Origin: Pelomonas caseinilytica
GTDB lineage: Bacteria > Pseudomonadota > Gammaproteobacteria > Burkholderiales > Burkholderiaceae_C
Length of the DNA: 64,000 nt
Reading direction: 5' to 3'
Assembly (NCBI RefSeq): GCF_021353235.1
Contig: NZ_JAJTWT010000016.1
Coordinates: forward strand, 1-64,000
Part shown: in pieces, positions 50,591 through 63,851 of the stretch
Position numbering within the stretch: the first letter of the stretch is position 1
Layout: every line of letters starts with the position of its first letter
The notes under the pieces: generated by a model
The model's database searches: none
Told to the model about the DNA's origin: nothing
Seen by the model: the letters and a program-made list of their open reading frames with translations, nothing else
Program-made: the position numbers and the translations under genes

Positions 50591-51253
50591 TCAGCCATCG
50601 GTGCGGACTTCGAGCCGCGTGCCCAGTTGCAGGGCGGACCGGCTCCAGCCGCGCGGCGACGCCGCCAGCGTGGCCTGTACGCCTTCAGGCACGCCGGCCA
50701 CCGTGACCTGGGCGACGGCGAAGCGGCCGGCCCCGGCCCGGTCGTCGGGCGTGATGCGGATGGAGACGTCGGCCGACGGGCTGCCTTCGAGTTCGCGCAG
50801 CACGCGGGTCAGCGCCTCGCAGAGACGGTAGAGGGCCTGCGGCGCGAGGTCGGGCACCTGGGCGTCCAGGTGCAGGGCGTCGCTGCGCCGGCCGTGCAGC
50901 CACCGGCTCAGGCGCCAGTAGCTCGACACCTGGTTCACGAGGGCGTTCTGCCCGGGCCGCCGCTGCAGTTCGTGAGAGGCCCGGAGGTAGTCGGCCATCT
51001 CGGCGACGCCGTCCTGGACGTGCTCGTTGGCGTTCAGCGCCATGACGACACGATTGAGGACGTTCATGACGAGGTGCAGTTCCAGCAGCAGCCCGCTGCC
51101 CGCAACGTCGGCTGGCGCCGCCTCGGCCGCCGTGGCCGCGGGGTCGGCCGTTGCGGGGCCGCCGGCGCGGCGCCGGCCCAGCAGGGAGGCGCAGGCAAAG
51201 CCGCCGGCAAAGCTCACCAAGCCGACAGTCAAGGCCATGAGGCTGGGGTCCAT
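50591..51253 (-). CDS. Degenerate LytS-like (His_kinase-type) membrane protein
   Basis: A 220-residue protein with an N-terminal membrane helix (MALTVGLVSFAGGFACASLL). Its middle (LLLELHLVMNVLNRVVMALN, then MADYLRASHELQRR) resembles the QINPHFLFNTLN ... LSDLLRYSL region of LytS-family kinases, but the phospho-acceptor His-Phe is replaced. The C-terminal part has ATPase-like spacing (LYRLCEALTRVLRELEG) with no recognisable G boxes. I infer a kinase-derived protein without kinase activity. A GGGAGG site precedes ATG 51253. Lies 47 bases after the pseudokinase gene and 25 bases before the GGDEF/EAL gene. The family call is tentative. Confidence 0.6.
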   Translation of the reverse strand: MDPSLMALTVGLVSFAGGFACASLLGRRRAGGPATADPAATAAEAAPADVAGSGLLLELHLVMNVLNRVVMALNANEHVQDGVAEMADYLRASHELQRRPGQNALVNQVSSYWRLSRWLHGRRSDALHLDAQVPDLAPQALYRLCEALTRVLRELEGSPSADVSIRITPDDRAGAGRFAVAQVTVAGVPEGVQATLAASPRGWSRSALQLGTRLEVRTDG

Positions 51254-51300: not shown

Positions 51301-53850
51301 TCAGCCGCCCGCGGCCACGAAGGCCGGGGGTGCCGGGGGCAGGGGTTGGGGGCTGCGCAGCAAGGCCAGGCGTTCGCGCAGCCGACGCACGGAGATGGGT
51401 TTGTAGGCCAGGGCCACGCCGAGTTCCTCGGCGATGGCGCCCACCTCCTCGCGCACATCCCCAGTCAGCAGCAGGACGGGAACGTCCCGCCATTCGGGGC
51501 GCCTCCTGAGCTGGCGCAGTGCCTCGGTGACCGGCCCTTTCTCGCCCAGGTTGAGGTCGGTCACGAGCACGCCGGGCACCCCGTGGCTGAAGCGCGAGGC
51601 CGGCGCCACCAGTTCCTCGATGGACGCGAAGCCTTGGGCGTCCATGCCGGCATCCAGCAGCGCGTTCATGAGAGTGATGCGGCCGAAGGCGTCGTCCTCG
51701 ACGATGGCGACGGTCCGGTCGACGGTCAGGGCGTCGTCGCGCATCTCGGCCGCCGAGGGCACGAAGGCGCGCGGCAGGCTGAGGCGGTACAGCACCCCGA
51801 GCGATGGCGAGCGCTGCACGCTCAATTCGTGGCCCAGCATCTGGCAGGCCTGGCTCGCCGTGGCCAGCCCGAGGCCGAGTTCATCGGGGTCCGCGTCGGC
51901 CGCCGCCTCGGGCGGAGTCTCCTCGCTGGCGACGATCTCGATGCAGGTGTTCTGCTCCGAGGGCATGACGTGGACCTGGACGCTGCCGCGAGAGGCGTGC
52001 TTGACGACGTGCCCGACGAGGTTGACGACGATGCGCCGCAGCAGGTGGCGGTCGCTGAACACGCCGAACTGCGAAGGATGGACCGCCCAGGCCAGCCCCT
52101 TCTGTTCGGCCAGCGGACGGAACTGGCGATCGACTTCGTCGAGCAGGTCGCCAAGCTCGAAGCGCTCGGCATGCGGCACATAGGTGCCTTCCTGCAGGCG
52201 GGTCATGTCCATCAGGGCATCGAGCATGTCGGTCAGCGTGCGGCTGCTCTGGCGGACGGCCTCCATGTAGCGCTGGCGGGCCTGCGGCTCGCTCAGCGGC
52301 CCGGCCCCGGGCTCGGCCAGGTGGCTGAGGGCGTGAGCGGGCTGGCGCAGTTCCCGGCAGGCGGCCGCGAGCTGGCGGCTGCGCGCGTCGCTCAATTGCC
52401 TGAGCTGGGCATTGGCGGCGCCCAGGCTGTCCGCCAGGGATGCGATGAGGCGATGGCGCCGCCGCTGGCCGACATAGAGCGCCGCGATGGTCAGCAGCGC
52501 GACGCCCAGCAGCGCGGCCCCGACTGCCAGGGCGGTCCGGCGGGGCGCCTCCGCGGTGGCCCGCGCTTCGTGCTCGGCGGCGTCGACGCGGGCCTGGGTC
52601 AGCCGCTCCTGGGCTGCCGAGGCGGTGGCCAGGCGGATGGAGGCGGCATGGGCCAGATCCTCGAGCGCCTTGCCGGGCTCGTTCAGTACCTGCCAGGCAC
52701 GCGCCGACGCCTCGTAGTAGGCGGCCAGGCCCGCCTTGTTGCCCCCCTCGAGGGACTGCGCCAGGGCGCGGCCTTCCACCAGCACCGAGCGGGCCCCGCT
52801 GTCTCCGAGGCGAGCGAGGGCCAGGGCGCGGCCGGACAGGGCATCGAGCTTGTAGGCGTTGTTCAGCGCCTCGAAGGTGACGGCGTTGAAGTCCGCCAGT
52901 GCCGCCCCGTACTCCCCGGCGGCCAGGTAGGCCTGGCCTCGGGCCACGTAGGCGCGGGCCAGCGGGGTGGCCAGGCCGGCGCGCTGGGCGGCGTTGAGCG
53001 CCCGCTGGGCCAGTTCCAACGCCTCGACCTGCCGGTCCAGCCGGCCCAGCAACTGGCTCAGGCGGATGGCAGGCGTCAGCAGGCCGGGGTATTTCTCGGG
53101 CGGCAGGGTGCGGACGACCTCGTCCAGGTAGGCGGCCGCCAGGTTCGCCGCGGAGCGGGTCGGGTTGTCGAACAAGGCCAGCGCCATGTAGACGAGCAGT
53201 TCGGCCCGCTCGATCTGGCCGGTCAGCAGGGGCAAGGCGCGCTGGAACTGGTAGAGCGCCTCACCTTCCTGCCCCGACTGGCTGGCGATGATGCCGCGCA
53301 GCTTGCGCACCAGGCCCTCGTGCAGCGGTCCGCCGATTTCGCCGGCCAGTTGCTGCAGCAGGTCCAGGCGGGCCGGCCGGGGTGCCCGCGAGAACTGCAG
53401 GACGCTGGTCGACTCGGTCATGAGGACGAGTTCGAAGGTGGCCAGCGGGTCGGCCGCCGCGCGGGCGTCGCCGATGGCGCGTTCGGCCTGGTCCAGCAGC
53501 GGCACGGCCGACTGCAGGTCGTAGGCCGCGGTGTGGTTGGCCAGCCAGGCGAGGTGGATCCATTCGGCATGGCGGTCCCCGCGCCGGCGAGCGGTCTCAT
53601 AGGTCGATCGCAGCTGTGCCAGTTCGGACTTGAGGTCGCGGTAGGCCAGGTCGCGCCACTGCTGCCGCAGCGAGCGGATCTCCTCGAGCGCCTGCGCCTG
53701 GGCCGCCGAAGCGGGCGTGACCTGCGGCGGCGCCTCGGTGGCCGCCCGCAGGGGTTGGACGCAGGTGGCGAACACGGCCAAGGCGAGCAGCCCCGAGCGG
53801 GTGGCGCGGCCGAGGCGGCGCCCGGGCCATGAACACCGGTGGGCCGTCAT
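51301..53850 (-). CDS. TPR-like sensor with degenerate histidine-kinase core and intact receiver
   Basis: An 849-residue exported-domain sensor. A signal sequence/helix (about 15-35) is followed by a helical TPR-like repeat domain (about 45-420), a membrane helix (about 443-465), a kinase-like region and a C-terminal receiver. In the kinase region the usual (S/C)HDLRQP is CRELRQP, with Arg499 in place of the phospho-acceptor His. His614 replaces the N-box Asn, and the DxGxG box is missing. The receiver keeps its acidic pair, Asp765 (VTDLNLG), Thr in LLTGD and Lys in YKPIS. It is a tandem paralogue of the kinase upstream. The start overlaps that gene's stop (ATGA). Confidence 0.88.
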   Translation of the reverse strand: MTAHRCSWPGRRLGRATRSGLLALAVFATCVQPLRAATEAPPQVTPASAAQAQALEEIRSLRQQWRDLAYRDLKSELAQLRSTYETARRRGDRHAEWIHLAWLANHTAAYDLQSAVPLLDQAERAIGDARAAADPLATFELVLMTESTSVLQFSRAPRPARLDLLQQLAGEIGGPLHEGLVRKLRGIIASQSGQEGEALYQFQRALPLLTGQIERAELLVYMALALFDNPTRSAANLAAAYLDEVVRTLPPEKYPGLLTPAIRLSQLLGRLDRQVEALELAQRALNAAQRAGLATPLARAYVARGQAYLAAGEYGAALADFNAVTFEALNNAYKLDALSGRALALARLGDSGARSVLVEGRALAQSLEGGNKAGLAAYYEASARAWQVLNEPGKALEDLAHAASIRLATASAAQERLTQARVDAAEHEARATAEAPRRTALAVGAALLGVALLTIAALYVGQRRRHRLIASLADSLGAANAQLRQLSDARSRQLAAACRELRQPAHALSHLAEPGAGPLSEPQARQRYMEAVRQSSRTLTDMLDALMDMTRLQEGTYVPHAERFELGDLLDEVDRQFRPLAEQKGLAWAVHPSQFGVFSDRHLLRRIVVNLVGHVVKHASRGSVQVHVMPSEQNTCIEIVASEETPPEAAADADPDELGLGLATASQACQMLGHELSVQRSPSLGVLYRLSLPRAFVPSAAEMRDDALTVDRTVAIVEDDAFGRITLMNALLDAGMDAQGFASIEELVAPASRFSHGVPGVLVTDLNLGEKGPVTEALRQLRRRPEWRDVPVLLLTGDVREEVGAIAEELGVALAYKPISVRRLRERLALLRSPQPLPPAPPAFVAAGG

Positions 53851-56188
53851 ATGACTCGCGCCTCGGCCGCGTGGAGCATTCCACCGGCATGGTCCGCGTC
53901 CAGCCTCTCCATGCCGAGGCGGACCACGGAGCCTCGGGGCGAGGAGAGCGGCACGGAGATTTCGTGGCCGAGCACCCGGCAGGCCTGGCGCACGATGGAC
54001 AGGCCCATCCCCAGGCCGACGGCGCCGCCCAGGCTGACGCCGAACTCGGGGTCGGTGGCATCGCCGGTCAGCTTGTCGACCGGGATGCCCGGGCCGGTGT
54101 CGGCGATCTCGACCAGGACCCGCTGCTCCGTCACCGCCGCGTGGATCTGGACGCCGCCGTGGGTCGAGTAGCGCACCGCGTTGGACGCCAGGTTGAAGAG
54201 GATGCGCCGGAGCAGGTGACGGTCGCTGCTCACCAGGGCCGAACGGCGCTGACCTGCCAACCCAGGCCCTTGGCCTGCGCGGCCTGGCGGTATTGCAGGT
54301 CGACCTCGACGAGCAGCTCGCCGAGGTCGACGATCTCCGCGTGAGGCACGTAGGTGCCACGCTCGAGCTGCGTCATGTCCATCAGCGCGTCGAGCATGTC
54401 GGTGAGCGTGCGGCTGCACCGCTGCACCGCCTGTACGTGCGCCTCGACGTCTTCGGGCCGCTGGGGCTCGGCGGGTTGGGATTCGGTGAGCAGCCCCAGC
54501 ACATGGGCCGGCTGGCGCAGGTCATGGCAGGCGGCGGCCAGGTGGCGGCTGCGTGCGGCGTTGAACTGCTCGAGCTGGGCATTGGCCGACTGGAGCTGGG
54601 TCACCAGCCGGGCGATCTGGCGGCGTTGGCGGAACTGATGGGCGTAGAAGCCTCCCGCGAGCAGGACGGCCGCCGCCAGGCCGAGCACGCCGATCACCAG
54701 CCACCGGCGATGGGCGGCTTCGACCTGGGCCTCCGCCGCCCGCGCCGCGCCGTCGACGCGCGCCTGAAGCAGCTTCTCCCGCGCGGTGTTGGCCATGGCC
54801 GAGCGGATGGCGCCGGCGCGCGCCAGGTCGTCCAGCGCGCCGGCAGCGTCGCCGAGGGTCTGGCGCACGCGGGACGAAGCCTCGTAGAACTGGGCGATGG
54901 CCAGGCTGTTGGTGTTGCTCTGGGCCTGGGCCAGCACATGGCCACGCTCCAGCAGCCCCGTGGCGCCGGGGTCGCCCAGTTGCGCCTGCGCGAGCCCCCA
55001 TCCCACCAGGCAGCTCAACCGGCCGGCGACGTTGAGCGCATCCATGGAAGCCGACTTGAAGGTGGCGAGCGCCAGGGCGGGACTGCCGGCGCCGAGGTAG
55101 GCATGGCCCAGGGCCACCTGCGCCTGGGCCAGAGGCGTGGCCAGGCCGAAGCGGCGCGCCACCGAGGCCGCCCGCTGTGCCGCCGCGACGGCGTCGCTGT
55201 TGCGATCCAGCCGGCTCAGCAGCTCGCTCTGCCGGACCAGGGCCTCGACGAAGCTGGGATAGCGCTCGGGCGGCAGGGCTTCGTCCAGCTCCCGGAGATA
55301 GCCCAGCGCCTGCCGGGCCGCCGGGACCGTGGGGTTCTCGAACAAAGCCTGGGCCATGGCGAACAGCAGCTCCGCCCGGTCGAACCGGCCGGACAGCAGC
55401 GGCATGGCGCGCTGGTACTGGAACAGGGCCTCGCCGTCCTGGCCGGCCTGCGCGGCAGCCAGGCCGCGGAGTTGCCAGACCAGGCCTTCACGCAGCGGGT
55501 CGCCCAGCTTGCCGGCCATGGCCGCGGCCTGGGACAGCAGGGACTCACGCGGCAGCTCGTACTGCTGGCCCACGCGCGTGGCCTCCACCATCCACAGCAG
55601 CTCGAAAGCGGCCATGGTGTCCCCGCCCTGCCGGGCCGTCTCGATGGCCTGCTCGGCGAGGGTCAGCAGCGGCGCACTGGTGGCGTAGTCGACGGCGGCG
55701 GTCTCGCGCGCCAGCCAGGCCAGGTGCATCCATTCGGCGTGACGGTCGCCCCGGGCACGGGCGCCCTCGTACTGGGCACGCAGTTGCCCGAGCGCCCCCT
55801 GGGCGTCTCGATATCTCAGCTCGAGCAGCGCTTCGCGCCAGGCGCGCCAGTCGTCGTTGCTGCGCAGCTCGGGCGTCGCGGGGGTCGGCTGGGCCACGGC
55901 GCATAGCGGGCCGAGGCTGGTCCACAGCAACACCAGCCACAGCAGCGCGGCCAGCAGCCGCGTCGCCGCGCCGGCACCGCAGAAGCGGCGTTCGGCCCCG
56001 TCGGCGGACGATGAGACGGTTTGCGACAGCAAGGCTGACAGCCCCTTGTGTGTTGCGGTCGACAGGGAAGGCCCGCTGAACCACGCTTGCAGTATGGGGC
56101 CGCCACGCGGGCCCCGGATGGGGGTTGACGAGGGGACTCCGCTGCGCTGGCACTCCAGCGCGCCGGACGAACCCTGGTCGATCGTCAC
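53847..56188 (-). pseudogene. TPR-like sensor histidine kinase interrupted by a single-base frameshift
   Basis: Two overlapping frames together make one kinase. The first (56188-54230) covers the export signal (about residues 77-100), TPR-like domain, membrane helix, and phospho-acceptor His555 in CHDLRQP, then stops after GLGWQVSAVRPW. The second continues with ALVSSDRHLLRRILFNLASNAVRYS, DTGPGIP and GLGMGLSIVRQA, a complete ATPase domain ending at 53847. Adding one G in the CGGCCC around 54237-54242 restores VRALVSSDRH, the expected continuation. The GTG start at 56188 overlaps the chemoreceptor stop, and the first 75 residues are unusual. It could be a sequencing error or a real loss. Confidence 0.85.
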
Positions 56189-58588: not shown

Positions 58589-59752
58589 ATGGACAGTGCA
58601 GACATCTGGGACATCTTCTACCGGCCCGACGACCTCGCCGGCATGTGGTTCGGATTCCAACTGGCTCGCTCCTTGGGAGAGCAGCGCCAGCGCGTCCGGC
58701 TCTACTGCCACGACATCCAGACCCTGTCCGTCGCCCACGTCAACCTTGACCCGCGCGTGCTGATCCAGCACCTGGGCAGCGTCGAGATCCTCGACCAGCG
58801 CCTGGCGCGCACCATCGCCGCCGCCCCCAACCTGATCGAAATCTTCGACGGCGCGCCGCCAGCACCCTACATGGCCCGCTTCTTCAGCATGCAGTCGGGC
58901 GGCAACTGGTACTCCCTGCACGCGCCCTGGTCCAGGCGCGACGTCCCGACGGCCATCCAGTTGCGCACGCAGTCGCAGACGCATCGCCAGTTCGACGTGA
59001 ACCTGGGCGATTCGTCGCAAAGCGCCGGCCTCATCCGCTCCGTCGGGCAGCCCCATGTACTGCGTACCAGCCCGCAGTCGCTGCTGGCGGCACGGGCCAG
59101 CATCCTGAGCCTGCTGGGCCTGTCGTCGGACCTGCTCGAAGCCGACCGGACTCTCTACGTGAGCGCCAGCGCCGGCATCGCCTGGCCACAGTGGCTGCGC
59201 GCCCTGATCGAGTCCGAGACCTCCCACTGCCTCTTCGTCGAGCATGGCGAGCTGCAGGAGAAGATCGCCCCCATCTTCTCCCGCGTGCCGGGCCAGCCGG
59301 GCACGAGCTCCATCGGGGCGCTGACGGTCGTCTTCCTGCCGCCTCTGCTTTGGGCACTGGTCGACGAGATCATCAACATCTGCGACCTCGTGCTGACCGA
59401 CCGCGACGACGTGGCCTTCCGGGCCGCTGAACGCGGCACCCCATCGGTGCGCGCCCAGGCGGCACCCACCGACACCGACATGGCGCACTGGCTCTTTCCA
59501 GAACCCAGCTCGAACCTGGCCGAGTGCTACCGAGGCGCGGCGGCGGCCCTGGGCACGGGCCGTGGCGTGCCCGAAAACCTGGACGCCTTCATGGCCCGGC
59601 TGGAGGACTTCAAGGCCCATGCCCGGCAGGTGCAGGCCCGCGTCGGTCGCGCCTCGGACCTGGTCGCCCTGCTGCTGACCTCCAGCGAGATCAGCACCGC
59701 CTCGAACGTGGAGCGATTGTTCGCTCCGACGCAACCCAACCCGATGCTCTGA
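58589..59752 (+). CDS. Divergent EarP-like protein (arginine rhamnosyltransferase fold)
   Basis: A 387-residue protein that resembles EarP, the enzyme that rhamnosylates an arginine of elongation factor P. Matches are the N-terminal WDIFYR (EarP: WDIFCR) with ..LAR.L and the late block CDLVLTDRDDVAFRAAERGTPSV, which parallels CDLNFVRGEDSFVRAQWAGKPFV. Yet the catalytic DNxGDIG loop reads DDLAGMW, and the RGED nucleotide-sugar motif is changed. So the rhamnosyl transfer function is doubtful; it may be a pseudo-enzyme or use another substrate. No efp gene adjoins it, unlike true earP. ATG 58589 is chosen. Followed 13 bases later by a pseudo-receiver gene. Confidence 0.6.
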   Translation: MDSADIWDIFYRPDDLAGMWFGFQLARSLGEQRQRVRLYCHDIQTLSVAHVNLDPRVLIQHLGSVEILDQRLARTIAAAPNLIEIFDGAPPAPYMARFFSMQSGGNWYSLHAPWSRRDVPTAIQLRTQSQTHRQFDVNLGDSSQSAGLIRSVGQPHVLRTSPQSLLAARASILSLLGLSSDLLEADRTLYVSASAGIAWPQWLRALIESETSHCLFVEHGELQEKIAPIFSRVPGQPGTSSIGALTVVFLPPLLWALVDEIINICDLVLTDRDDVAFRAAERGTPSVRAQAAPTDTDMAHWLFPEPSSNLAECYRGAAAALGTGRGVPENLDAFMARLEDFKAHARQVQARVGRASDLVALLLTSSEISTASNVERLFAPTQPNPML

Positions 59753-59765
59753 GACCCGGATCGCC

Positions 59766-60191
59766 ATGAAGACCCCCCTGCCCCGCGTGCTGGTCGTTTC
59801 CGATTCCGCCGACCTGCGCTGGCATTTCAGCACCCTGCTGTACGAGCTGATCGTGGACGTGTACTGGCAGCTCGAGCTCAAAGGATTGGTCGAATTCGCC
59901 CACTGGTGTGAACCCCATCTCGTCATCCTGGCCATGCGCGACCTGAACGATTCGTACGCCGCCTACCAGGGCCTGGCAGGCCTGCTGAAGGACTCGGCGG
60001 CGCGAGTGGCCCTGGTGGGCGCCCCGCAGGACGGCGCACCCTACCCCAGCCGTGACCGTTTCCAGCTCGACGGCTACCTCTCCGCCCCGCCCACCCTGCA
60101 CGAACTGGCCTGGCTGGTGCAGCAATGCCGCATGCCCGCGGCCAAGCTGCCGCCCAAGGCGGGCAAGCCCTTCAGCGCGCCTCGCGTCTAG
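59766..60191 (+). CDS. Stand-alone receiver-like protein lacking the phospho-acceptor
   Basis: A 141-residue protein with the outline of a CheY-like receiver: PRVLVVSDSADLRWHFSTLL as first strand and helix, EPHLVILAMRDLN where the acceptor strand should be, ARVALVGAPQ and LDGYLSAPPTLHELA. The acceptor Asp is Ala56, one of the two acidic-pocket residues is missing (SDS for EDD), and the conserved Lys is Ala107. Phosphorylation by the usual chemistry is therefore not expected. A short Pro-rich basic tail follows. It lies 13 bases after the EarP-like gene and 72 bases before the hybrid kinase gene. Confidence 0.75.
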   Translation: MKTPLPRVLVVSDSADLRWHFSTLLYELIVDVYWQLELKGLVEFAHWCEPHLVILAMRDLNDSYAAYQGLAGLLKDSAARVALVGAPQDGAPYPSRDRFQLDGYLSAPPTLHELAWLVQQCRMPAAKLPPKAGKPFSAPRV

Positions 60192-60263: not shown

Positions 60264-62237
60264 ATGGCAGCCGAAGACACCGAGACCCACACCGCCGAGG
60301 GCCCACCTCCGCCCGCACGTCCGCGCCTGAGGTCCGGCGCCCTGATGAACGTCATCAGCCGGCGTACCCTCACCCTGGTCGCGCTGCTGGGCGGCGCCGT
60401 CCCCGCCTACCTGCTGGCAAGCCGCCAGCCTGGCTGGGCAGTCCTCGTGGGCTGGCTCGCGCTGTACGCGCTCGTCGGCAGCTACTGGCTGCGCGACGCC
60501 ATCACCGAGAGCCCGACCTTTCTCGGCCCGTCCAGGGCGGTGCGACCGCTGCTGCTGGCCGCCGTGTTCGGCGTCATCGGCGCCTCGCCCATCCTCGTCT
60601 TCGAAAACGACCACCATGCCCGGGCTTCACTGACGCTGCTGGCACTGAGCCTCTCGCTGGCGGCCTCGGCGGCGGCGCTCAAGAAACCCGCCAGCGGCAT
60701 CGGCTACGCACGGGCCGTCCTGGCGGTCACGCTGGCCGGCTGGGCCGCGGCGCAGGGCGACGTGGAAGTTCTCTTCATGCTGCAGGTCGTGGCCGCATGG
60801 CTCTTCGCGGAGATCTTGTCGCGCCGGTCCGCCTACCTCAGGCGCCGGTTCAAGGCGGCAGCCGCCAGCCACGCCAACGTGGCCAACGCCCTGCGCGCCA
60901 AGACCCGCGAACTGCAGGAGTCGAACTCCTCGCGCGTCCGCATCCTGGGCACCGTCAGCCACGAAATCCGCCAGCCGGTGCATGCCCTCGGCATGATGGT
61001 CGAGCGGCTGCGCATCGATCCCCACTCCACCGAGTTCCGCGTCCAGCTCGACGAGATCGCCTCCGTGGTGCGCTCGCTCGCGCATTCACTCGCCCTGCTG
61101 CTCGACATCTCTCGCCTGGACGCCGGCACCGTCAAGGTCAAGAAGAGCATCTCGCCGGTGCAGGCTTTGCTCGAACGCATCCGCCGGGAGTTCGCCGTCG
61201 ACGCCAAGCGCAAGGGCCTGAAGTTCGAGTGCGACAGCGACCTCAATGCCAAGATCGACACCGACTTCGCCCTCTTCTACGGCGCCGTGGCCAACTTCGT
61301 CAGCAATGCCATCCGCTACACCGACCGCGGCTACGTCAAGGTCTCGCTCTCGCAGCGGAACAAGGACGAACTCTGGCTGCACGTCAAGGACAGCGGCCGC
61401 GGCATCCCCGACGACAAGTTCGACGACATCTTCAACGAATACGTCCGCCTGGACCGGGAAAACCAGGCCGCGCAAGGCTTCGGGCTGGGCCTGGCCATCG
61501 TCAAGCGCACGGCGCAGCTGCTGGACCTGACCATCGAGGTCGACTCCGTGCTGGGCAAGGGCAGCGAGTTCCGCATCTCCGTGCCCTGCAGCAGCCAGAC
61601 GCAGTCCATGACGCCGGGGGCAACGACCATGGCCCGCCCGTCGACCGTCAGCCGCTCGCTGGTCGGACTGCGCGTGGTGCTCGTGGACAACGACGAATCG
61701 GTGCTGCGCGGCATCGACAGCATGGTGCGCAGCTGGGGCTGCGTGCCGCTGTCCTGCCAGAGCGTGGCGGAGCTGGCCGGCAAGCTCGCCCACATGCCCG
61801 GCACGGAGTTCGACTGCGTGGTGGCCGACTTCCATCTCGGTGCCGGCGAGCCCAATGGGCTGGACGCCATCGAGCTGGTCCGCAAGAGCATGTCGCGCTT
61901 CGTCTCAGCCACACTTTTCACGGGCGACCTCAGCATCCGTTCGGCCGACCTGCCCTTGCCCGACGTGCACGTCGCCCACAAGCCCGTCGTGCCGGCGCGC
62001 ATCTGCGTGATGTTCGAGGAGATGGCCGCCGAGAGCAAACGCCGCCGCCCCGAAGAGGATTCCGAGGCGGCACTCGAAGTCGAGACCCTGTCGGAATCCA
62101 TGCCGCTGGCCTCGGCCTACTCCTACTCCAACCACCCCGCCATGCTGCAGCCGCACGAGGCGCAAGTCGCCGCCGAGGCGGTCCTGCAAGGGGCCGCGGA
62201 GGCCGGCATACGCCAGCCCGCCGCCAAGCCGGACTGA
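60264..62237 (+). CDS. Membrane hybrid histidine kinase with C-terminal receiver
   Basis: A 657-residue kinase. A disordered N-terminus (1-28) precedes an integral sensor region of about six helices (30-190). A dimerisation domain with His233 in GTVSHEIRQPVHAL follows, then an ATPase domain (NFVSNAIRYT, DSGRGIP, GFGLGLAIVKRT) and a receiver with Asp522 in VVADFHLG plus the DND pocket, Thr in LFTGD and Lys in AHKP. All residues needed for autophosphorylation and internal transfer are present. It is the only fully intact kinase of the island and the likely partner of the LytTR regulator 150 bases downstream. Confidence 0.93.
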   Translation: MAAEDTETHTAEGPPPPARPRLRSGALMNVISRRTLTLVALLGGAVPAYLLASRQPGWAVLVGWLALYALVGSYWLRDAITESPTFLGPSRAVRPLLLAAVFGVIGASPILVFENDHHARASLTLLALSLSLAASAAALKKPASGIGYARAVLAVTLAGWAAAQGDVEVLFMLQVVAAWLFAEILSRRSAYLRRRFKAAAASHANVANALRAKTRELQESNSSRVRILGTVSHEIRQPVHALGMMVERLRIDPHSTEFRVQLDEIASVVRSLAHSLALLLDISRLDAGTVKVKKSISPVQALLERIRREFAVDAKRKGLKFECDSDLNAKIDTDFALFYGAVANFVSNAIRYTDRGYVKVSLSQRNKDELWLHVKDSGRGIPDDKFDDIFNEYVRLDRENQAAQGFGLGLAIVKRTAQLLDLTIEVDSVLGKGSEFRISVPCSSQTQSMTPGATTMARPSTVSRSLVGLRVVLVDNDESVLRGIDSMVRSWGCVPLSCQSVAELAGKLAHMPGTEFDCVVADFHLGAGEPNGLDAIELVRKSMSRFVSATLFTGDLSIRSADLPLPDVHVAHKPVVPARICVMFEEMAAESKRRRPEEDSEAALEVETLSESMPLASAYSYSNHPAMLQPHEAQVAAEAVLQGAAEAGIRQPAAKPD

Positions 62238-62387: not shown

Positions 62388-63167
62388 ATGAACACGGAAG
62401 CGCATTCGCCGCCGGCACAGCAGGCGCGGGCGGAACCCACGGTCAAGGTCCTGGTCGCGGAGGACGACCCGGTCCAGCGGAACTCCCTGGTGGACCTGCT
62501 CGCCTCCCTCAGGCCCGATTGGGGCGTGGTGGCCTGCGTCGGCTCCGTGGACGAAGTCCAGTCGGCCGTCGACTCCCTCATTCCTGACCTTTGCCTCATC
62601 GACATCCACCTGCAGGGCAGCGACGATCCGAACTGGATCAAGAACCTCGGCTCCGACCTGGCCATCATCTACGTCACCGGCGACCCGGAATTCGCCGTGC
62701 ACGCCTTCGACAGCGACGCCATCGACTACGTGCTCAAGCCCATCACGGCTCGGCGCCTGAAGACGGCCCTCGACCGTGCGAGCCGCGACCCGCGCCTTTC
62801 CGGCAGCCGGTCCACGGGCGGCGAAGGCGGCCCCGGGCGGACCTACCTGACCCGCGTCACCATTTCACGTGGTGCGGAGACCATCGTGGCCATGCCGGAA
62901 GACATCGCCTACCTGGAAGCCGACATGAAATACACCCGCGTCGTGACGACGCGGGGCGCGGGCCTCGTGCGCATGGGCATCAACGAGTTGAGCGCCCGGC
63001 TGCCTGAAGAACAGTTCCTGCGCATCCACCGCGGCTACGTCGTCAACCTGAAGTTCGTGTCTTCGGTCAAGCGCAACGAGCTGGGCTATCTCGAAGTCCA
63101 TCTGAACGGGCGCCAGGAAGTGCTGCGGGTCAGCAAGTCCTACCAGCACGTCTTCCGTCCCGATTGA
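62388..63167 (+). CDS. LytTR-family response regulator
   Basis: A 259-residue regulator: receiver domain with the EDD pocket (25-27), Asp72 in CLIDIHL and Lys117 in DYVLKPIT, then a Gly-rich linker and a C-terminal LytTR DNA-binding domain (about 155-255, EDIAYLEADMKYTRVVT, FLRIHRGYVVNLKFV). The AlgR/LytR class binds direct repeats upstream of targets. A GAGGGG site precedes ATG 62388. The preceding 150 bases contain a C/G-run and no clear hairpin terminator. Confidence 0.95.
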   Translation: MNTEAHSPPAQQARAEPTVKVLVAEDDPVQRNSLVDLLASLRPDWGVVACVGSVDEVQSAVDSLIPDLCLIDIHLQGSDDPNWIKNLGSDLAIIYVTGDPEFAVHAFDSDAIDYVLKPITARRLKTALDRASRDPRLSGSRSTGGEGGPGRTYLTRVTISRGAETIVAMPEDIAYLEADMKYTRVVTTRGAGLVRMGINELSARLPEEQFLRIHRGYVVNLKFVSSVKRNELGYLEVHLNGRQEVLRVSKSYQHVFRPD

Positions 63168-63350
63168 CGCCGGCCGCGTCGCCCCCCGGCCGCACTCGTC
63201 TCCGCAGCCTTCACCGAACCGGCCCGCAATTGGTGGCGGCCGGCGCCGCACTCGTTCCGCCTCCAGGCGCCTCGTCTGAAAGCCGCAGGCCCCTCCACCG
63301 CGCCGCTTACCTTTGCCGTCGAGGGAGCGCGCAAAGGCGCAGTGGAGAAG

Positions 63351-63851
63351 ATGAACATTCTGACGGCGGTGATCCTCGGCTGGCTGGGCCTGAACCTGGT
63401 CCTCGTCCTCCTGCTCTGGCGTGACGCAGAAATGACCCGGCGCCGGGTCGAAGCCAGGGAAGCGGCCCGCGCCAAGGCGCGGGCGGAGCGCCAGGCCGCG
63501 CTTTGGCGCCCGCGCGGCGATGCTGCGGGGCATCCGGAGGCCGGCATCGCGGCCCACGCGAGCGCCGGCTCCGACGCGCCACCAGCGCGCGAGGCCCGCC
63601 GGGTGATCGCGATGGTGAGTGGAGAGTCCGGTGACGCCCTCGCGCCCCGGCTGTCCGGTGGCGGCAGCGCCGCGCGCGTCCTGCCGGCCGTGCCCGGTGC
63701 AGACGTTCGCCATTTGATGGATCTCTACGACGAAATCCGCACCCTGCGCCTCACGGTGGCCGAACTCAGCCTCGACAAGGCCCGCCTCACGGCGATGACC
63801 CAGCCTCGCCCCCGCCCACCGCGCGCTGCGCCGCGCACCGACCGGAGCTGA
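63351..63851 (+). CDS. Small membrane-anchored hypothetical protein
   Basis: No family recognised. A 166-residue product from ATG 63351 (MNILTAVILGWLGLNLVLVL) with one N-terminal membrane helix, an Arg/Ala-rich coiled stretch (about residues 25-55), a disordered middle, a short predicted coiled coil near the end (DVRHLMDLYDEIRTLRLTVA) and a Pro/Arg tail. GGAG lies 3 bases before the ATG; GTG 63342 also opens the frame. Separated from the LytTR gene by 183 bases in the same direction. Confidence 0.65.
   Translation: MNILTAVILGWLGLNLVLVLLLWRDAEMTRRRVEAREAARAKARAERQAALWRPRGDAAGHPEAGIAAHASAGSDAPPAREARRVIAMVSGESGDALAPRLSGGGSAARVLPAVPGADVRHLMDLYDEIRTLRLTVAELSLDKARLTAMTQPRPRPPRAAPRTDRS

Follow-up and report, generated by a model that had tools for sequence, protein, structure and literature searches.

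EarP is the EF-P arginine-32 rhamnosyltransferase (PF10093, TIGR03837; PDB 5NV8, 6J7M, 5WXK). According to excerpts of a study of this enzyme (PMC5615199), D13, D17 and E273 are invariant across EarP orthologues (432 homologues mined) and alanine variants at these three positions are inactive. Residual activity is reported there for D13E and E273D and none for D17N, D17E or E273Q, and the contacts to the donor are F191, F252, F258, Q255, R271 and Y193. Receiver-fold proteins that lack the phospho-acceptor Asp and work with a hybrid kinase are known, as in ShkA of Caulobacter (PMC7010744 and PMC12632262, both in excerpt), where the pseudo-receiver is a domain inside the hybrid kinase and is bound by c-di-GMP (PMC7010744). 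The mechanisms that switch bacterial pseudo-receivers were termed a mystery in the excerpted part of a 2025 perspective (PMC12632262). In LytS/LytTR systems, for example BtsS/BtsR, the regulator consists of a receiver and a LytTR domain (PMC10653868, in excerpt).

Here we describe an EarP-fold protein, referred to as EarPL, encoded in a stretch of 64,000 nucleotides from Pelomonas caseinilytica (the window). The sequence-only reading of the window had placed this gene inside a signalling locus, and genes for a pseudo-receiver, a hybrid kinase and a LytTR regulator do follow it (Table 1). We propose, with a confidence that we would put at about even, that EarPL represents a separate EarP-derived clade of predicted dead enzymes and is likely a protein-binding adaptor of the adjoining hybrid-kinase/LytTR pathway.

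Table 1. Features of the EarPL locus, with positions in the window.
Feature	Position	Strand	Description
220-aa protein, H...N..N motif	50591..51253	-	recurs near EarPL in other genera
EarPL	58589..59752	+	387 aa; EarP-fold protein, predicted catalytically dead
EarPL residues 12-22	58622..58654	+	replace the EarP D13-to-D17 loop; W20 instead of G19 (5NV8 alignment)
EarPL W255 codon	59351..59353	+	instead of EarP ribose-contact Q255 (alignment)
EarPL residues 265-283, CDLVLTDRDDVAFRAAERG	59381..59437	+	replace the RGEDS block: R271 to D, E273 to D, S275 to V
EarPL C-terminal tail, VERLFAPTQPNPML	59708..59749	+	possible docking peptide (putative function)
Stand-alone pseudo-receiver	59766..60191	+	141 aa; Ala at the phospho-acceptor Asp site
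Hybrid histidine kinase	60264..62237	+	HisKA, HATPase_c, weak receiver match; 72 bp after the pseudo-receiver
LytTR response regulator	62388..63167	+	receiver and LytTR DNA-binding domain; 150 bp after the hybrid kinase

The similarity of EarPL to EarP exceeds chance. The N-terminal WDIF and the CDL...F.RA...G.P block (CDLVLTDRDDVAFRAAERGTP, residues 265-285), on which the suggestion of EarP ancestry had been based, are both present in the open reading frame. The EarP profile PF10093 matches the protein above its gathering score (47.3 bits against a cut-off of 25, E 2e-12), and the predicted model has the GT-B fold of EarP and is strongly similar to EarP on structure comparison. A lack of profile or structural similarity, the outcome that would have spoken against the suggestion, was therefore not observed. 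A search of PDB sequences with the single EarPL protein gave no match up to E 1, and a profile search did match EarP there (5nv8, E 8e-31). The NCBIfam EarP equivalog TIGR03837 scored 48.4 bits on EarPL, far below its cut-off of 347.05, and 17 to 67 bits on six other EarPL proteins.

An ordinary earP is present elsewhere in the same genome (G000:C39:12521-13519, 400.8 bits), carries DNHGDIG and RGED, and adjoins the sole EF-P N-domain match of the genome on contig C39; the loop of this EF-P is SRGGRGAA. An ordinary EarP was found in all 20 genomes of the genus that were searched. No efp gene is present among the neighbours of EarPL in the open reading frame list of the window, as had been stated from the letters alone. 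EarPL as simply the divergent EarP of the species is ruled out by the ordinary earP adjoining the EF-P gene. We also rejected the idea that EarPL was recently copied from the resident earP. In the tree (65 rows), one branch with 100/100 support separates 26 EarPL proteins from 39 ordinary EarPs, and the resident ordinary EarP falls with its own genus; the branches are long and do not fix the age of the split.

To compare residues, 75 ordinary EarPs and 26 EarPL proteins were aligned jointly with P. putida EarP (5NV8) as the reference; P0022 (a fragment) and P0002 (an antisense reading) were left out, and P0017 lacks its N-terminus. The ordinary EarPs were chosen by D[NT]xGDxG and [RK]GED, which makes their counts at D13, G19, D17, R271, E273 and D274 wholly or partly circular; the counts at F191, Y193, Q255, S275 and Y291 are free of this circularity. 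F191, Y193, R271, S275 and Y291 are present in 75/75 ordinary EarPs (partly by choice at R271) and in 0/26 EarPL proteins (one EarPL is gapped at Y291). The column of Q255 is Gln in 73/75 ordinary EarPs and Trp in 26/26 EarPL proteins, and that of G19 is Trp in all 25 EarPL proteins having that part. At R271 the EarPL proteins have Asp (22), Ser (2), Glu (1) or Thr (1). E273 is kept in none of the 26, with Asp in 14, including EarPL of the window, and D274 and R278 are retained in 24/26 and 25/26, respectively. None of the dTDP-rhamnose pocket residues F191, Y193, F252, Q255, F258, R271 and Y291 is kept in EarPL of the window, which has D, G and D in the columns of D13, D17 and E273 and so lacks the set of catalytic acids. 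Across EarPL, Asp occupies the D17 column in 5/25 and the D13 column in 9/25 (EarPL of the window among the latter). The N-terminal loop lacks one residue relative to EarP, and where the gap falls in this stretch is uncertain. The earlier claim of altered catalytic motifs thus holds for DNxGDIG, which aligns with DDLAGMW, and for RGED, which aligns with DRDD, but the loss of D13 itself hangs on where the gap is placed. At the other end of the protein, the motif F[AS]PTxP is found at the C-terminus in 23/26 EarPL proteins and in 0/75 ordinary EarPs; the exceptions are the EarPL of G134, which lacks it, and P0009 and P0018, where it is altered. In the model the final residues have low pLDDT, as would be compatible with a docking peptide that is flexible.

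EarPL is a patchily distributed clade. Orthologues with 65% identity occur in G013, G018 and G019, so that 4/20 genomes of the genus, with that of the window, have this type, and a second type (30% identity) occurs in 2/20, G005 and G019. Remoter EarPL genes were found in two other genera, in G185 (1/16 genomes) and in G134, G315 and G812 (3/16 genomes). Each of these four genomes has one more match, which carries ordinary EarP motifs in G134, G315 and G812. Among 5.8 billion proteins we found 21 relatives besides the protein itself (48-73% identical), and a profile search of the protein database gave no members beyond these. With the best few candidates per genome scored, so that some EarPL genes could have escaped, 5/399 genomes of the family match the EarPL query at 70 bits or more (at least), the highest score in 399 genomes of the order, the own genome aside, is 127.9 bits, and four of 369 genomes of the class besides the own have a match, all with ordinary motifs. 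Inspection of 29 loci of the order outside the own genome revealed no EarPL: 26 carry both ordinary motifs and three are ordinary by close variants; a distant EarPL could hide among the other order matches listed. A plasmid search with EarPL gave no match. In both genomes with the second EarPL type, its gene immediately precedes one for guanylate kinase, after which comes a RelA/SpoT gene (L022:5189-9727 in G005; L023:530-5002 in G019); L023 also has an RNA polymerase omega-type gene there. G019 has 6% contamination, and a foreign origin is possible for its second EarPL or for one of its two copies of ordinary EarP; the completeness of G013 is 91%.

EarPL is under purifying selection. The EarPL matches listed have open frames free of inner stops, and in the close pair G018/G013 EarPL has a dN/dS of 0.145 and the ordinary EarP one of 0.140, with 0.29-0.46 and 0.18-0.43, respectively, in the remaining pairs (NG86, a rough measure on GC-rich genes).

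The pseudo-receiver gene starts 13 bp downstream of EarPL on the same strand. Its product has no Pfam match, and its model (pLDDT 80) has a receiver fold, with a receiver as the top Foldseek match (E 1.3e-5). The site of the phospho-acceptor Asp is Ala56 in 8/8 rows. In the hybrid histidine kinase the kinase boxes are conserved, as judged by eye, and the receiver match, with 17.3 bits, falls short of its cut-off (30.2). The LytTR regulator matches the LytTR profile with 70 bits and the receiver profile with 47.3 bits and has the phospho-acceptor Asp in 5/5 aligned sequences; its best NCBIfam match is BtsR, where its 83.7 bits do not reach the cut-off of 246. Strand and spacing suggest that the genes from EarPL to the LytTR regulator are transcribed as one operon. 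A search for LytTR-type tandem repeats upstream of EarPL gave none for the window and none common to the loci; repeat-like matches in G018 and G315 are at chance level.

Several other genes lie around EarPL in the window and in other genomes. Proteins of 207-220 aa with the H...N..N motif and an N-terminal hydrophobic stretch are encoded near EarPL in the five genomes with a LytTR orthologue (relatives in L025, L083, L084 and L085). They could be the cognate LytS-like sensor, although Pfam gives nothing for the 220-aa member, even at thresholds as loose as E 10. A histidine kinase ORF with TPRs (54230-56188, minus strand) stops after HisKA, and HATPase_c is found in an overlapping ORF of another frame (53847-54419, minus strand), indicating a frameshift or a sequencing fault. 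A 169-aa protein (63342-63851, plus strand) has an N-terminal hydrophobic stretch, no Pfam match, and relatives (36%) near EarPL in G013 and G019. Large surface-type proteins with PATR repeats, PEP-CTERM or lectin-like/DUF6701 parts are encoded near several EarPL loci (L019:5306-8806, L083:55-5343, L084:9672-14582) and are a possible output of the pathway.

We used the window kinases, the LytTR regulator, the pseudo-receiver and the 169-aa neighbour as tblastn queries against other EarPL loci and against ordinary earP loci, the latter in stretches of 5 to 19 kb. Signalling relatives are present at 8/9 EarPL loci, the window counted, versus 0/22 ordinary earP loci; the locus of G812 was not counted as it is 99.9% identical to that of G315. 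Four more ordinary earP loci have no kinase, LytTR or pseudo-receiver relative, and one of them has a chemoreceptor. The Fisher p for this linkage is 4e-7, a value inflated by shared ancestry, the EarPL loci representing about five lineages in the tree. Conservation of the neighbourhood had been proposed as a check in the sequence-only reading; the one EarPL locus where no signalling relative was found is that of G005. Full LytTR orthologues (49-76% identity) are present in G000, G019, G185, G134 and G315, each at most 4.3 kb from EarPL, and G013 has an 82-residue piece of the LytTR regulator that is 67% identical. This C-terminal remnant (L020:3223-3468) abuts the start of EarPL on the opposite strand. 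In G018, G005 and 20 EarPL-free genomes (15 of the genus and five of two other genera) there is no full-length LytTR match above 36% identity, and shorter pieces reach up to 45%. The LytTR orthologue is thus found in 5/8 EarPL-bearing versus 0/20 EarPL-free genomes (p 6e-4, again inflated by ancestry). Overall, three genera show EarPL linked to genes for kinases and LytTR regulators. Because EarPL adjoins the LytTR gene in G134 and G315, where the pseudo-receiver is missing, EarPL and the LytTR gene would form the older core of the locus.

Sugar transfer is argued against by the replacement of the donor pocket, the diphosphate Arg and the catalytic acids across a conserved and selected clade, and a protein-binding role in the pathway is argued for by the invariant pocket Trp residues, the new tail and the co-inheritance with the LytTR regulator and hybrid kinase. 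In this reading, the two invariant Trp residues would plug the cleft that holds the donor in EarP, and the tail with F[AS]PTxP would dock on a pathway partner. EarPL together with the Asp-less pseudo-receiver, where present, may modulate either the activity of the LytTR regulator or its supply of phosphate from the hybrid kinase. Against this reading stand the EarPL of G005 without signalling neighbours, G018 without a LytTR orthologue, the tail motif being absent or altered in 3/26 proteins and the missing LytTR-type repeat upstream. The Asp found by some members in the D17 column (5/25) or the D13 column (9/25) also counts against it, as does the Asp at E273 in EarPL of the window, E273D EarP being reported to be partly active in the excerpts of PMC5615199. 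A more specific proposal, which we put forward tentatively and at less than even confidence, is that a pseudo-glycosyltransferase with a plugged cleft and docking tail, descended from an ancient offshoot of EarP, is the dedicated third part of a travelling kinase/LytTR module, with the pseudo-receiver, as a second dead protein, relaying it to the hybrid kinase. If this is true, a phosphorelay has come under the control of a fold otherwise used to modify a translation factor.

The main rival to the adaptor is a ligand sensor, in which the reshaped interdomain cleft binds another small molecule and signals to the kinase or regulator. The two-domain GT-B fold with its interdomain cleft and the polar residues that persist in the former pocket (D274 in 24/26, R278 in 25/26) speak for a sensor, but bulky Trp occupies two pocket positions without exception, the residues for the donor have been lost and there is no candidate ligand; we consider it unlikely. 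Altered sugar transfer and EF-P binding are both less likely than ligand sensing. That EarPL is still a glycosyltransferase, using another donor or chemistry on a signalling protein, is made quite improbable by the loss of the diphosphate Arg R271 in 26/26 (Asp in 22) and the replacement of the aromatic cage and Y193 in 26/26, even with the GT-B fold kept and an acid at E273 in 14/26 and at D274 in 24/26. Of the two options given in the sequence-only reading, the clade-wide replacements disfavour a recruited glycosyltransferase acting on an arginine of a signalling protein and favour, as a prediction, a dead binding protein. EarPL might instead compete with EarP for EF-P, binding the factor but leaving it unmodified, and couple translation to the signalling pathway. 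The D13A, D17A and E273A variants of EarP still bind EF-P in a two-hybrid assay, but most donor-pocket variants fall below the binding threshold (PMC5615199, in excerpt), and the pocket of EarPL is far more altered than those of these variants, leaving this idea, too, with little probability.

Two further explanations deny EarPL a part in the pathway. As a dead EarP relative hitch-hiking in signalling islands, it would have a role unrelated to the kinases. This is consistent with the G005 copy lacking a nearby kinase or LytTR relative and with the position of the second EarPL type, which in G005 and G019 precedes gmk-rpoZ-spoT-type genes. We regard it as improbable given the linkage at 8/9 EarPL loci versus 0/26 controls and the LytTR orthologue missing from 20/20 EarPL-free genomes examined. 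A functionless remnant could account for the patchy presence (window type in 4/20 and second type in 2/20 genus genomes), but the frames free of inner stops in the EarPL matches listed, the dN/dS of 0.145 in the close pair, and the new invariant residues and new tail make it very improbable. The adaptor remains our preferred reading.

No report of EarP joined to LytTR or a response regulator was found in the open-licence literature, subscription papers being mostly uncovered, in agreement with the earlier remark that no EarP paralogue is described in a two-component locus. The EarPL locus would offer a small defined case in which to ask how dead enzymes and pseudo-receivers control a kinase. 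It resembles ShkA in having an Asp-less receiver-fold protein beside a hybrid kinase and, unlike ShkA, its pseudo-receiver is a separate protein encoded between EarPL and the kinase, with no known ligand. It shares with LytS/LytTR systems the architecture of the regulator and differs in that the kinase nearest to this regulator is a HisKA hybrid kinase; to our knowledge, no EarP-like part is known in those systems. Annotation by the EarP Pfam profile misleads here, since it labels EarPL proteins as EF-P modifiers though the residues for the chemistry are replaced. Compared with EarP itself, EarPL has a replaced donor pocket and replaced catalytic residues, an extra C-terminal tail and signalling neighbours in place of efp, and the clade would show the reuse of a specialised protein-glycosylating fold, probably in signal transduction.
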